Below, piece after piece: positions 5,504 to 33,796 of a DNA stretch of 33,918 nt (the stretch's first letter is position 1; each line of letters begins with the position of its first letter). The notes beneath the pieces are model-generated. The model was not told the origin of the DNA and searched no databases. It saw nothing but the letters and a program-made list of their open reading frames with translations. Source of the DNA: Candidatus Kaiserbacteria bacterium (GTDB lineage: Bacteria > Patescibacteriota > Minisyncoccia > Phycocordibacterales > UBA918); the NCBI GenBank assembly GCA_024653575.1, contig JANLIJ010000109.1, positions 1 to 33,918 of the forward strand, read 5' to 3'. A program made the translations under genes and the position numbers.

Positions 5504-5610
5504 GTATTTTGTACCTTCAATATAGGAAACAAAACATATCTCGCTAAAATGCCCGATTTCAGTGTGGAAATATTCAAAGAAATATGAACATAGAGTATAC
5601 TAGTGAGCAT

Positions 5611-6795
5611 ATGAATACACATTCAATCATTCAAAGGAACGCGCAAATACTCTATGTACTTTGCGCCCTCGGAGCATTATCAATTTTACCAGCAGTTGCA
5701 AGCGCGACGACGTGCACATTTGACCGCGACCTTGAAATGGGCTCAGTCGGTGAAGACGTGCGCTGTCTTCAAAAGTTTCTTAATAACGAAGGATACATCA
5801 TCACAACCACCGGCGGTGGTGCCGTGGGCAATGAGACCACTGAATTTAAATCCCTCACAAAATCAGCACTCATTAAGTGGCAGGAAGAAAATAGTATTTC
5901 ACCAGCAACAGGTTACTTTGGACCACGGTCACGACAACTCTATTTGGACACCGTTGGAAAAAACTCAACAGGAGACACCTCCTCATCCGACACCGCGCTT
6001 CTCCTTCGCGTCGCCGAGCTGAAGGCACAATTGGCATCATCACAGGGCACGAGCAACGTAAAAGATGGTGGGCGCACTGCGACAATACTCAGTGAACGTA
6101 TTCGCGATGTTATCGATGAGTTTAACGGAGCAGACGACGATGCCGACGGTGATGAAAACGCTTTAGACAGCCTTGATGATGCGCGAGATAATCTCTTCGA
6201 CGCAATACTTGCATACTTCGACGGGGACTATGCTGACGCAGATGACTATCTCGATGATAGCGAGAATGACATTGAGGATGCCCTTGATGCAGTCGGCAAG
6301 TCATCCGAAGATGACGAAGCAATGGACAGAATTGATGAGGTAAAGGACAGAATTGATGATGCAGAAGATGAAATCGATACAGCTGATGAAAATGGTGAAG
6401 CAACGAGCCGTGCGGAGGAATATCTCAACGATGCTGAGAGCCTTCTCGATGAAGCAGAGACAGCATTCGATGATGAAGATTACGACGAAGCACTTGATTT
6501 GGCCGATGAAGCTGACGACCTCGTCGACGATGCACTCGATTCAATCGGAAAGTCATCACAGGATGTAGAAGATTACCTCGATGAAATCAGAAATGACTAC
6601 GAGGATGCGCTCGATGAGGTTGATACAGCCATCGATGATGGCGACGATGTGGGCGATGCTGAGGACTTCCTCGATGAAGCAGACGAACTTCTTGATGATG
6701 CCGAAGACCTCATTGACGAAGGAGAGGGCAACGAAGCAGAGGATCTCATTGACGAGGCAAGCGACCTCATAGACGATGCACGTGGAGAGTTATAA
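5611..6795 (+). CDS. Secreted protein: signal peptide, peptidoglycan-binding_1 domain, Asp/Glu-rich repeats
   Basis: ORF 5584-6795; start moved to ATG 5611 because TATACT (5596-5601) lies upstream; GSVGEDVRCLQKFLNNEGYI...GYFGPRSRQLY typical of PG_binding_1. Confidence 0.8.
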   Translation: MNTHSIIQRNAQILYVLCALGALSILPAVASATTCTFDRDLEMGSVGEDVRCLQKFLNNEGYIITTTGGGAVGNETTEFKSLTKSALIKWQEENSISPATGYFGPRSRQLYLDTVGKNSTGDTSSSDTALLLRVAELKAQLASSQGTSNVKDGGRTATILSERIRDVIDEFNGADDDADGDENALDSLDDARDNLFDAILAYFDGDYADADDYLDDSENDIEDALDAVGKSSEDDEAMDRIDEVKDRIDDAEDEIDTADENGEATSRAEEYLNDAESLLDEAETAFDDEDYDEALDLADEADDLVDDALDSIGKSSQDVEDYLDEIRNDYEDALDEVDTAIDDGDDVGDAEDFLDEADELLDDAEDLIDEGEGNEAEDLIDEASDLIDDARGEL

Positions 6796-12539: not shown

Positions 12540-13016
12540 CTACTTCTTCTTTGGAGCAACTTTAGCTGGTGCCTTCTTCGGTGCAACCTTAGCTCCCGCC
12601 TTCTTGGCAACAGCTTTTTTTGTAACGGTCGCAACGGCAGTACCAACAACCTTCTTTATAGCCTTACTCTTTTGGAGCTTTGTCCAGTGCTCGTGCATTT
12701 CCTTTTGGAAATCTTTCACTTCGCCTGCAGTAGCACTCTTCACGGTTCCGTATGCCTTACTTGCAGTTTCTACAAGCGCTCGGTACTCATCTTCTGTTAT
12801 CTCCTCAGCCTTCTCGAGCGCTTCAAGCACTTCACCCTTCGCCTTGAGCATCCATCCTTTTACTTTCTTTCGATTCTGATTTGCATTCTTGCTTCCATAC
12901 AAGAAGTAAGCTCCCGCTGCGGTAACTGCCGCTGCGGTAAGTCCAAAACCTATTCCCATCTTTTCTGCTGAACTTAACCCCTTCTTAGATTTTTTCTCTG
13001 CCATATTATGCTTCAT
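12540..13016 (-). CDS. Histone-H1-like Lys/Ala/Pro-rich small protein
   Basis: C-terminal KKAVAKKAGAKVAPKKAPAKVAPKKK tail; N-terminal glycine-rich hydrophobic segment (YtxH-like). Confidence 0.7.
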   Translation of the reverse strand: MKHNMAEKKSKKGLSSAEKMGIGFGLTAAAVTAAGAYFLYGSKNANQNRKKVKGWMLKAKGEVLEALEKAEEITEDEYRALVETASKAYGTVKSATAGEVKDFQKEMHEHWTKLQKSKAIKKVVGTAVATVTKKAVAKKAGAKVAPKKAPAKVAPKKK

Positions 13017-13187
13017 CCCGTTAGAGTTAGGAAGTGTTTAAATATTTGATATCTACACCCCTAACAGATTCTTATAAATTGTCTTCACTTACAAACACTT
13101 CCGTTAAAGCATCTGACCCTCCTTACCATATATAAATATACATTATTTGATACTGGTGTGTTGGGAATGTCACAAACTCTAACGGGA
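13016..13187 (-). promoter_or_regulatory. Leader of the H1-like gene bracketed by a variant of the same inverted repeat
   Basis: Minus strand TCCCGTTAGAGTT (13187-13175) and AACTCTAACGGGA (13028-13016), perfect complement; nested IR GGAAGTGTTT/AAACACTTCC at 13030-13039/13093-13102. Confidence 0.75.
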
Positions 13188-13493
13188 TTCATCATTAATT
13201 TTTAATTCTGTATTCCGCCCCGCTGTCTTGGCCTTTGACGTAGTTCTCTTCGGGGAACCGGTGATTGCCCTAATGATATTACGAATGAAGCCTTCTTGTG
13301 CGAAAAAACTTCGTAGCTGTTGCATGTCCTCAGCAATAATCTCCGTACCCGCATCAATGCGATCGACAATACGACGCAGTGATATGAGAACTTTGATTGC
13401 ATGGAAGAGCACAACACAAAGAATCGCAGAGCAAACAATGACCGCTATTCCCGTTATGAAAAAGAATATGTCTGCATGTAGAACCTCACTCAT
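13179..13493 (-). CDS. Small single-TM protein (DUF948-like) with basic C-terminus
   Basis: 104-aa ORF, N-terminal TM then amphipathic helix; stop codon lies in a TCCCGTTAG arm. Confidence 0.6.
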   Translation of the reverse strand: MSEVLHADIFFFITGIAVIVCSAILCVVLFHAIKVLISLRRIVDRIDAGTEIIAEDMQQLRSFFAQEGFIRNIIRAITGSPKRTTSKAKTAGRNTELKINDESR

Positions 13494-13606
13494 CCCGTTA
13501 GAAGTAGGTTGCGATTGCTATTAATACACACGAGGTTGCGAAATGACTCTCAGCAAGGAATCGCCAGACAATGTGTGATGTCCCGTAACCGCAACTTCTA
13601 ACGGGA
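13493..13606 (-). promoter_or_regulatory. Leader of the 13179-13493 gene bracketed by the same inverted repeat
   Basis: Minus strand TCCCGTTAGAAGT (13606-13594) and ACTTCTAACGGGA (13505-13493), perfect complement. Confidence 0.75.
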
Positions 13607-13638
13607 CTCATGTCCTTACATTCTATCAGATTTCTGGA

Positions 13639-19396: not shown

Positions 19397-19425
19397 TTGA
19401 CAGTCTTCCAGTTCCCTAGTATTTA
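19397..19425 (+). promoter_or_regulatory. Candidate topA promoter
   Basis: TTGACA (19397-19402), 17-nt spacer, weak -10 TATTTA (19420-19425). Confidence 0.45.
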
Positions 19426-19438
19426 TGGAAGGCACGTG

Positions 19439-19539
19439 TCCCGTTAGAAGTGCTGAACAAGCCATGACGGGAAACTACACCAATCTACGGAATCTGCAAT
19501 GAAACATTATCTTTTATTAATCAGTAACTTTTAACGGGA
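19439..19539 (+). promoter_or_regulatory. topA leader bracketed by 13-nt inverted repeat
   Basis: TCCCGTTAGAAGT (19439-19451) and ACTTTTAACGGGA (19527-19539); last A is the A of the topA ATG; pairs fully as RNA with one G-U. Confidence 0.75.
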
Positions 19540-21899
19540 TGTCACATACACTTGTCATCGTTGAGTCACCCGCTAAAGCAAAGACGATTGAAAAATATCT
19601 CGGAAAAGATTTTACTGTGCGCGCCTCGGTAGGCCACGTGCGCGACCTCCCCAAGAGCAATAAAGACGCCGTCGATATTGAAGGTGGTTTTATTCCGAAA
19701 TACATTATTTCTCCTGGAAAAGAAAAGGTTATCGCAGAACTTAAGAAGGAAGCAAAGAAGGCAGACAATGTCTTCCTTGCAACTGACCCCGACCGCGAGG
19801 GTGAAGCGATAGCATGGCACGTCGCTGAGCTCATCAAAGACTCCAACAAAAACCTACAGCGCGTCGTCTTTCATGAAATTACCGAGCCTGCAGTGAAAGA
19901 AGCTATCGAACATCCACGCGCAATCGATATTAATCTCAAAGAAGCTCAGGAAGCGCGTCGCGTGCTCGATAGACTCGTGGGGTATGACCTCTCAGGGCTC
20001 ATTTGGAAGAAGGTGCGCTACGGCCTTTCAGCAGGACGAGTACAATCTCCTGCGGTGCGTATCATTATGGAGCGTGAGCGAGAAATTCGTGCATTCATTC
20101 CTGAGGCATACTTCGTACTCACTGCACACACAGAGACTGAGAAAAAGACTGACCTTCCACTTACCTGTGCAGTAGAGCCGAGAGAAAAGGACGAGGCGGA
20201 GCGAATTCTCAAAATCGGAAAGACACACCCATGGGCAATTACGAGCATTGCAAAGACGGAGCAGAAGCGCACTCCACGACCACCGTATACCACCTCAACA
20301 TTGCAACAGTCAGCATCAACGCGACTCGGTTTTTCACCATCACGTACTATGGGTGCTGCACAGAAGCTCTACGAGGCCGGCTTTATTACATACATGCGTA
20401 CCGACTCGACGAACATGAGCGACATCGCACAGAAGCAGATCATCGCACTCCTCCACAGTGATTTCGGAAAGGAGTATGTAACGCCGAGAAAATATAAAAC
20501 AAAAAGCAAGTCAGCACAGGAAGCTCACGAGGCCGTGCGCCCAAGTAATTTTGGCAAGAGAACTGCAGGAAGCACTGACGACCAGAAAAAGCTCTATGCG
20601 CTCATTTGGGAGCGTGCGGTTGCCTCACAGATGAGTGATGCAGTTGTTGAACGAACCAAAATAATTGCAAATGTATCGGGAAGTTCTGAGGAGATTCCAG
20701 ACTTTGTGACACACGGTTCGCGTGTACTTTTTGACGGATGGCTTCGCGTCGACACCCGTGCGCGTGGTGAAGATGTAGAAATACCAAAGCTCGCTGAAGG
20801 TGATTCGCTCACACTCAAAGAACTCATTGCTGAAGGAAAAGAGACGCAACCGCCAAGCAGATACACTGAAGCCGGGCTCATTAAAGAACTCGAAAAGCGT
20901 GGCATTGGACGTCCATCGACATACGCTTCAATCATGAACACGATTGTACAGCGCGGGTATGTTGAAAAGGTGGGAAAGACACTCATACCGACCGACACTG
21001 GTGACCTCGTTTCATCATTCCTCGAAGAACATTTCACCGAATACATCGGGGATGATTTTACGAGTGAGATGGAAAATGAGCTCGATGAAATAGCTCTTGG
21101 AAAGCGCACCTACTTGAAGACACTCAGTGATTTCTATACACCTTTCTTGAAAATGGTGCAGTCAAAAGAAGATATTGAAAAAATCAATAATCTTGGCGAA
21201 GGACCAAAAGAATTCCCTTGCCCGCTCTGTGGGAGTGATATGGTTATCAAGCTTGGCCGAGGAGGAAAATTCCTCTCCTGCAATACATATCCCGCATGTA
21301 TGGGGGCACGCATGCTTGATGGCTCACAGATTAAGGAAGATGAGCCACTTGGCATTCATCCTGAAACAGGTGAAGAGATATATCTCCTCAATGGAAAGTT
21401 TGGGCCATATGTACAGATTGGTAAGACCCCCGAGAAAGTTCGTGGGAAAAAAGCGCCAACACCAAAACGTGCGAGTGTTCCGAAGGGCAAGAGTGTGAGC
21501 GATGTGACGCTCGAAGACGCTGTGCACTACCTCATCCTTCCCCGTGAACTTGGTACTCATCCCGAGACTGGAGAGCTCATCATCGCAAATACCGGACGTT
21601 TCGGACCGTACATTGGTCATGCTGGTGACTTCCGTTCACTCAAGGGTGTGGATAATCCATACGAGATTACGTTTGAACGTGCCCTCGAAATCTTTAAGGA
21701 ACCAAAGAAGATGCGTGCAGGCGAAAAGCTCGTCCGTGAAGTTGGTCTTCATCCCAAGACAAAGAAGATGATCAAAGTTTTCGAATCAAAATCTGGAAGA
21801 TACTTCAAGCGAGGTTTCTCACGAATTTGGATACCCGATAACACTGATATTAAAACACTTACTGTGGAAGAGGCCGTTGCACTCATGAGTATTAAATAG
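19539..21899 (+). CDS. topA: DNA topoisomerase I
   Basis: MSHTLVIVESPAKAKTIEKYLG, TOPRIM, FITYMRTDS active site, C4 zinc finger CPLCGSDMVIKLGRGGKFLSCNTYPAC. Confidence 0.98.
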   Translation: MSHTLVIVESPAKAKTIEKYLGKDFTVRASVGHVRDLPKSNKDAVDIEGGFIPKYIISPGKEKVIAELKKEAKKADNVFLATDPDREGEAIAWHVAELIKDSNKNLQRVVFHEITEPAVKEAIEHPRAIDINLKEAQEARRVLDRLVGYDLSGLIWKKVRYGLSAGRVQSPAVRIIMEREREIRAFIPEAYFVLTAHTETEKKTDLPLTCAVEPREKDEAERILKIGKTHPWAITSIAKTEQKRTPRPPYTTSTLQQSASTRLGFSPSRTMGAAQKLYEAGFITYMRTDSTNMSDIAQKQIIALLHSDFGKEYVTPRKYKTKSKSAQEAHEAVRPSNFGKRTAGSTDDQKKLYALIWERAVASQMSDAVVERTKIIANVSGSSEEIPDFVTHGSRVLFDGWLRVDTRARGEDVEIPKLAEGDSLTLKELIAEGKETQPPSRYTEAGLIKELEKRGIGRPSTYASIMNTIVQRGYVEKVGKTLIPTDTGDLVSSFLEEHFTEYIGDDFTSEMENELDEIALGKRTYLKTLSDFYTPFLKMVQSKEDIEKINNLGEGPKEFPCPLCGSDMVIKLGRGGKFLSCNTYPACMGARMLDGSQIKEDEPLGIHPETGEEIYLLNGKFGPYVQIGKTPEKVRGKKAPTPKRASVPKGKSVSDVTLEDAVHYLILPRELGTHPETGELIIANTGRFGPYIGHAGDFRSLKGVDNPYEITFERALEIFKEPKKMRAGEKLVREVGLHPKTKKMIKVFESKSGRYFKRGFSRIWIPDNTDIKTLTVEEAVALMSIK

Positions 21900-30819: not shown

Positions 30820-30914
30820 GAGGGATTCGAAGCTGTTCAGAGATACCTTTTCGAGTGAAACGAAGAAAAGTATCCTGAACGGGTACTGGTCATGTAATGA
30901 CCGAAATTCCCTCC
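30820..30914. repeat. tRNA-Tyr-derived structured repeat R1
   Basis: GAGGGATTCGAA, stem GTTCAG.GATAC/GTATC.CTGAAC, hairpin GGTCATGTAATGACC, GAAATTCCCTCC. Confidence 0.75.
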
Positions 30915-30970
30915 AAGCACAAAATACCAAAACCCAAACATGCCTTGAGTTTTGTTATATTTTGCCGCCG

Positions 30971-31065
30971 GGAGGGATTCGAAAAGGTTGCCTGATATTT
31001 TATGACCGTAGGGAAATAAAATATCGACAACCTGTACTGGTCGTGTAACGACCGAAATTCCCTCC
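30971..31065. repeat. tRNA-Tyr-derived structured repeat R2
   Basis: GGAGGGATTCGAA, stem GGTTG.GATATTTTA/TAAAATATC.CAACC, hairpin GGTCGTGTAACGACC, GAAATTCCCTCC. Confidence 0.75.
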
Positions 31066-31113
31066 TGGGATTCGAAGCTGTTCAAGTAACGACCGAAACT
31101 TCTTACAGAAGCT
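31066..31113. repeat. Truncated structured repeat R3
   Basis: TGGGATTCGAAGCTGTTCAAGTAACGACCGAAACTTCTTACAGAAGCT; the middle of the unit is missing. Confidence 0.65.
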
Positions 31114-33695: not shown

Positions 33696-33796
33696 GAGAA
33701 ATTCGAAAAGGTTGCCAGATATTTTGAGAATGAAATGAATCAAAATAACGACAACCTGTACTGGTCATGTAATGACCGAAACTTCTTACAGAAGCT
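33696..33796. repeat. tRNA-Tyr-derived structured repeat R4
   Basis: GAGAAATTCGAA, stem GGTTG.GATATTTT/AAAATA..CAACC, hairpin GGTCATGTAATGACC, GAAACTTCTTACAGAAGCT (last part shared with R3). Confidence 0.75.

Follow-up and report, generated by a model that had tools for sequence, protein, structure and literature searches.

The window, the whole stretch of 33,918 nucleotides of a Candidatus Kaiserbacteria genome analysed here, carries three pairs of complementary 13-base arms at gene starts, and raises the question of why the two arms of a pair change between copies and still match. The first-pass annotation had described arm bases that change together around a fixed core and had favoured pairing in RNA, with the caution that three copies give little statistical power. 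All three arm pairs were confirmed (13016-13028/13175-13187, 13493-13505/13594-13606 and 19439-19451/19527-19539; Table 1); their arms do differ from copy to copy while remaining complementary, and the topA pair does contain the single G-U-capable position ascribed to it, present as G-T. The sequence TCCCGTTAG has five exact occurrences against 0.10 expected, a number that no shuffle reached. In each of the three elements, one 13-base arm ends with the base that opens a start codon (13016, 13493 and 19539), and in most copies the same four to five bases found at the gene start also stand outside the opposite arm. A stable fold is predicted for each of the three, and an Rfam search of the window returned tRNAs only, with no described RNA family at the elements.

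Table 1. Elements of the window with their ends, target duplications and host genes
Feature	Position	Strand	Remarks
Element 1, 172 bp	13016..13187	-	on start codon of 158-aa lysine-rich (H1-like) gene; minus-strand TCCCGTTAGAGTT ... AACTCTAACGGGA
Element 1 left (gene-upstream) inverted end TCCCGTTAGAGTT	13175..13187	-	
Element 1 right inverted end AACTCTAACGGGA	13016..13028	-	ends on the A of the start ATG
Element 1 target duplication TGAA, gene side	13012..13015	-	from sequence
Element 1 target duplication TGAA, far side	13188..13191	-	from sequence; with A13192, the displaced native ATG
Element 1 host gene, 158 aa, lysine/alanine-rich C-terminus	12540..13016	-	
Element 2, 114 bp	13493..13606	-	ends TCCCGTTAGAAGT / ACTTCTAACGGGA; on start codon of 104-aa gene
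Element 2 target duplication TGAG, gene side	13489..13492	-	from sequence
Element 2 target duplication TGAG, far side	13607..13610	-	from sequence
Upstream frame, displaced native ATG through element 2 (MSPVRSCGYG...IATYF*)	13498..13611	-	stop TAA 4 bases before restored start
Element 2 host gene, 104 aa, hydrophobic N-terminal segment	13179..13493	-	
Element 3, 101 bp	19439..19539	+	ends TCCCGTTAGAAGT / ACTTTTAACGGGA, one G-T; on topA start codon
topA, DNA topoisomerase I, host gene of element 3	19539..21899	+	
Promoter-like block TTGACA...TAGTATTTATG	19397..19427	+	upstream of topA, conserved in relatives without insert

The target duplication of element 3 is worn (CACGTG vs ATGTC), and the host genes of elements 1 and 2 had no match in a Pfam search. 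The 104-aa reading frame has its stop codon (13179-13181) inside the left end of element 1, so that its end reads ..GATGAATCCCGTTAG, or DESR*; with element 1 removed, positions 13179-13191 would read ..GATGAAGCATAA. Element 1 thus appears, from the sequence, to lie in the overlap of two genes and to break neither. Elsewhere in the window, direct repeats of 68-86 bp, CTGGTC[AG]TGTAA[TC]GACCGAAA..., stand near the right end (30848-31113 and 33696-33796), and a repetitive acidic coding stretch (6115-6776; GATGA.. repeats) falls within an ORF at 5584-6795 that matches DUF4398 and a peptidoglycan-binding domain.

The source genome (1.03 Mb in 220 contigs, 95% complete) holds about 18 elements, 77-189 bp long, with YTAACGGGATG occurring 13 times against once for the reversed pattern and CCCGTTAGA 37 times against twice. 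Their host genes include dnaJ, secF, atpB, tsaE, rplX, PrgI, a cytidylate-kinase-like gene and an O-antigen-ligase-like gene. The sequence TCTAACGGGAT has 12-29 matches in five other genomes of the order and none in the two genomes of the same genus, and a scan of GTDB genomes yielded at least 118 further loci, nearly all in CPR bacteria, the tiny-genome Patescibacteria to which the host also belongs. Among the matches listed are Kaiser-, Nomura-, Yanofsky-, Zambryski- and Saccharibacteria and others, together with single Omnitrophota, Planctomycetes/Phycisphaerae and Desulfobacterales bins, which could reflect transfer or contamination. Viral contigs gave no match to the exact element pattern.

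Insertion at start codons with target duplication

Across copies, the ends TCCCGTTAGA+NNN and NNN+TCTAACGGGA sit exactly on the start codon, a second copy of which stands beyond the opposite end, giving the general structure ATGNN[TCCCG...CGGG]ATGNN. The repeat is exactly ATGNN on both sides in 91 of 139 copies, extends to six bases in 6 and is limited to four in 3; since its two variable bases differ between copies (AA, GA, AG, TA, CG and GG), it is a duplication and not a fixed motif. In copies with a C/G terminal pair (L319, L340 and L343), the displaced start is ATG and the present start GTG, and hence the element itself supplies the first base of the start and the duplication proper is TGNN. 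The supplied base is A, or G in the CCCCG..CGGGG form, and the targets are RTG starts.

Empty sites were found in relatives for rplX, topA, secF, atpB, cmk, tsaE and dnaJ. For rplX, the empty site in genome G001 reads ...TTTACAT directly followed by ATGAAGATT, against ...TATATATGAA[element]ATGAAGATT in the source genome; for secF, ...CACTAAGT runs directly into ATGAATATA where empty, against ...CGCTAATATGAA[element]ATGAATCTA where occupied, and atpB, cmk and tsaE behave likewise. At topA, several family members have the empty site and share the promoter-like block. When pairs were located by their arms alone in G043 (two complete contigs, 387 kb), all seven lay at an ATG; the repeat is limited to ATG plus one base in three copies of this genome, and some copies show no duplication at all. 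Tandem or repeated insertion at a single start is seen in dnaJ of the source genome and of G003 and at L185, L219 and L250, and dnaJ has also been struck in a third genus (G049, L449). These comparisons show the element inserted at start codons with duplication. Terminal inverted repeats, target-site duplications, empty sites and a longer coding partner with the same ends, which are among the marks of transposon copies, were all found, although the protein of the coding partner is not a known transposase, and the reading of the arms as the ends of mobile DNA insertions that leave the gene intact is well supported by such comparisons.

Orientation relative to the gene is mostly single, with YCT inside the right arm in 127 of 237 copies and its mirror inside the left arm in 9 of 237. 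TG followed by two purines is preferred at targets relative to the background of starts. Targeting of Shine-Dalgarno-led starts was rejected (6% in targets vs 5% background), as was targeting of starts marked by a promoter (-10-like motif, 50% vs 40%). Since TG with two purines is plentiful elsewhere as well, two readings offer themselves: a coupling of insertion to transcription or translation, or the loss of insertions at other places. In the source genome, the copies at L074 and L077 and one in L078 lie away from an obvious start. L074, L077, L078, L131, L204, L244, L440 and L443 have a left flank of CTTG or CCTG and no matching right duplication, perhaps as the result of recombination between copies or of another target type.

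Relatives that encode a GIY-YIG domain

Relatives of about 280 bp (271-281 bp) with the same ends encode a GIY-YIG domain and nothing else (PF01541, E 4e-14 to 1e-16; 53-61 bits against a cut-off of 22.6), and a search of 286 genomes of the class found GIY-YIG relatives in 243. Among the best 30 loci, 27 are bounded by the same ends or by compensated variants (CCCGTTAGAGAT, CCCGTACGAACCA, CCCGTTAAAGAC and others), mostly at starts, and in at least 21 the stop of the GIY-YIG gene overlaps the restored start (ATGA). The host gene's own start codon can serve as the beginning of the GIY-YIG frame, whose C-terminus, ..KNRLKRFLSLTG*, is written by CGTTTCCTATCTCTAACGGGATGA, the last residues, SLTG, coming from the right end. 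Element 1 has the right end CTTCCTAACTCTAACGGGATG, the FLTLTG form also found in GIY-YIG copies of the same family (L413 and L455), and the CTTCCT directly inside this end matches the FL codons at the end of the GIY-YIG gene. Right ends of the short copies (TTCCT..) match this gene end generally, and the short copies are therefore read as derivatives.

In 47 of 108 copies, where 14.5 would be expected, the frame MNPVR... that begins at the displaced ATG runs open across the element; by length class the counts are 29 of 61 and 18 of 47 against 8.8 and 5.7 in dinucleotide shuffles, although the copies are partly related, so that the significance lies below this raw deviation. The two open-frame classes end at a TAA four bases before the restored start or at a TGA overlapping it; in the class that would fuse to the gene, the frame is open in 2 of 31 copies against 4.4 expected, and no excess appears in the other frames. 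The upstream frame of about half of the short copies is interrupted by stops.

GIY-YIG matches number 4.8 in genomes that have at least four end sequences and 2.4 in those that have none, and the two counts correlate over 59 genomes (Spearman 0.49, not tree-corrected). The source genome, at its 95% completeness, holds no end-bounded GIY-YIG copy, and its sole short GIY-YIG ORF lacks these ends. Because GIY-YIG is the only gene found between the ends and because copy numbers correlate, the GIY-YIG protein may be inferred to be the mobility enzyme.

The elements could instead be non-autonomous copies of a conventional transposon, DDE or other, with the GIY-YIG gene a passenger captured between its ends. 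A combination of inverted ends and a 4-bp duplication is what DDE transposition typically produces, and the assignment of the moving protein is indirect. The loci read, however, contain no longer transposase-bearing unit between these ends and no DDE, HUH or other known transposase that would assign them to a known insertion-sequence family, and GIY-YIG is the sole gene inside the ends in the 27 of 30 loci. A genome-wide transposase survey, which covered Y1, found no match in copy-rich G046 (16 end sequences) or G025 (7), and Y1/RAYT (IS200/IS605) was rejected as the mover, as it is not consistently present in copy-rich genomes. A conventional transposon is accordingly judged improbable, if the most serious of the alternatives.

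Covariation of the paired ends and the question of RNA

Over 237 copies the helix is exactly 13 bp, with pairing dropping towards chance from position 14 onwards. Position 1 is T-A or C-G, and pairs 2-10 are nearly fixed; at positions 11, 12 and 13, respectively, 96.2, 93.7 and 93.7% of the copies form a Watson-Crick pair, where independence would give 46-47%. All four kinds of pair occur there, and the inner triplets take 22 different forms. When each of the 117 loci contributes a single copy, 111 of them pair at each of positions 11-13; shuffles give means of 53-55, and none of 5000 attained this value. The co-changing bases around a fixed core that had been noted from three copies are thus borne out on a sample that answers the worry about power, and independent divergence of the two arms did not emerge from it.

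The step from complementarity to RNA fares differently. Among imperfect pairs at positions 2-13 there are 22 G.U and 25 C.A, with no wobble bias towards the sense strand, and at positions 11-13 there are 12 and 19, respectively; an early hint of sense-strand polarity from eight G.U cases was gone in the full counts. Helices within the element exceed those of shuffled interiors about 2.7-fold and likewise lack a bias (2 vs 2), on small numbers. Selection for pairing in the mRNA should leave more G.U than C.A; since G.U does not exceed C.A, the covariation does not show RNA pairing, and since the arms are ends of insertions with duplications and empty sites, symmetry of the DNA ends accounts for them and no RNA function is needed. 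The simplest and likelier reading is that the two ends must match one another as DNA, though the element may play an RNA role once transcribed.

These counts also bear on a cis-regulatory mRNA leader, a riboswitch or translational switch in which ribosome access would be governed by pairing of the start-codon arm with the left arm. The pairing partner does cover the start codon, and the three copies of the window are predicted to fold stably, but a leader leaves the 4-bp target duplications and empty sites unexplained, interiors are unrelated between copies of one genome, the host genes are functionally mixed, the GIY-YIG copies have the same ends and G.U is not in excess, so that this reading is very unlikely. 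An RNA switch with an alternative partner inside the leader was likewise rejected, as the interior is not common to the copies. Less probable again is ribosome bypassing, in which the initiating ribosome would jump from the native AUG over the hairpin to the restored AUG: the start codon is duplicated on either side of the hairpin, formally as in mitochondrial byp elements, but the stem lacks a wobble bias and an upstream frame kept open to a stop at the restored start would be needless for a jump from the first AUG. A DNA operator with two half-sites for a looping regulator, suggested by nine nearly fixed arm positions, can practically be set aside, as the inner bases covary without conserved sequence, arm spacing runs from 60 to 280 bp, and target duplications and empty sites contradict it. 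Integron attC sites were also compared; GTTAGA/TCTAAC resembles the attC core site, but the order is opposite.

Proposed mechanism and related systems

On balance it is likely that a GIY-YIG mobile element and its short non-autonomous copies borrow host start codons, with stop-start coupling keeping the host genes alive. The GIY-YIG protein would read the fixed bases and the 13-bp duplex formed by both ends, as a DNA hairpin or cruciform, in which case pairs 11-13 may be anything provided that they match. Such structure-specific reading of the paired ends is suggested by the covariation and by what is known of GIY-YIG proteins such as SLX1, which prefer branched DNA. The target would be cut with a stagger at (A)TGRR, repair yielding the duplication, and copies of 60-190 bp, the three of the window included, would lack the gene and be moved in trans. 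As the displaced native start stays beside the promoter, translation would begin there and cross the element, producing the nuclease in the long form and a short peptide in many short ones; it would then stop at or just before the restored start, and the host gene would be translated by termination-reinitiation. It is the frame statistics that point to translation through the element and restart.

Stand-alone GIY-YIG homing endonucleases of the phage Seg type are single small self-spreading genes, as the present element appears to be, but in homing, recombination places a copy of the gene at a single cognate site and leaves no duplication, whereas the present element has inverted ends, enters many unrelated genes and leaves TGNN duplications, and assignment to that class was rejected on these grounds. 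MITEs with an autonomous partner are alike in having short non-coding and longer coding forms with common inverted ends and duplications; the present elements differ in lacking a transposase, in targeting the start codon and in having inner arm bases that are free but matching. Rickettsia palindromic elements are likewise palindromic insertions tolerated in genes, but they lie inside the coding sequence, whereas the present elements leave the reading frame untouched and rebuild the start codon. The closest solved sequences are UPF0213/YhbQ-type GIY-YIG proteins (PDB 1zg2 and 1ywl; E 7e-10 and 1e-4), which are not known to be mobile or to occur between inverted ends.

In CPR rRNA genes, GIY-YIG genes have been reported in compact insertions that are neither group I nor group II introns and were judged to lie outside homing, beside ORF-less insertions of less than 200 bp (PMC11270868). 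These resemble the present elements in protein, compact non-intron form, short ORF-less insertions and CPR hosts; conversely, their description is confined to rRNA genes and mentions neither ends nor duplications, neither a targeting of start codons nor a connection of the long with the short forms. A search of open papers found no described element that combines GIY-YIG, inverted ends and start-codon targeting, and no start-codon MITEs, and to call the present elements categorically new is a judgement within the scope of open papers. There is about an even chance that they represent a class of transposable element, among the smallest, that encodes no protein other than a GIY-YIG nuclease of some 90 residues, self-sufficient at about 280 bp, which finds starts, is expressed from the host start, recognizes its ends as a hairpin or cruciform and has sibling families in rRNA and possibly RNase P RNA genes.

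If this is true, GIY-YIG would be a further enzyme class behind movement that involves inverted ends and duplication of the target, and the parasite's strategy would be to take over and rebuild the start codon, such that even housekeeping genes (rplX, topA, atpB) survive. The GIY-YIG genes and short inserts recorded earlier in the rRNA genes of CPR would find an explanation in these elements, and for many CPR genomes the start sites and short upstream peptides would have to be reconsidered.

Other GIY-YIG insertions were seen beside these. At L456 (G024:C4:95800-97000, minus strand), a GIY-YIG ORF lies inside 20-bp inverted repeats, CCCCCCACCACTTTTATGCA, followed by AGGAAAGTCCGGACA, which looks RNase P RNA-like by eye and has no hit in Rfam; downstream stands another short palindromic insert, likewise bounded by CCCCCCACCACTTTT ends, and the locus is possibly a sibling family in an RNA gene. 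At L463 (G013:C9:5700-6849), a 23S rRNA gene (Rfam RF02541) contains two GIY-YIG ORFs; inverted repeats of 12 bp, CCGAGCACCTTC, enclose one of them. Different ends bound the GIY-YIG elements seen at L410 and L450 (G025:C8) and at L449 (G049:C3), namely TCACGTTAATGAT/ATCATTAACGTGA at an ATGAA start and the TCACGTTAGA type twice in a row before dnaJ.
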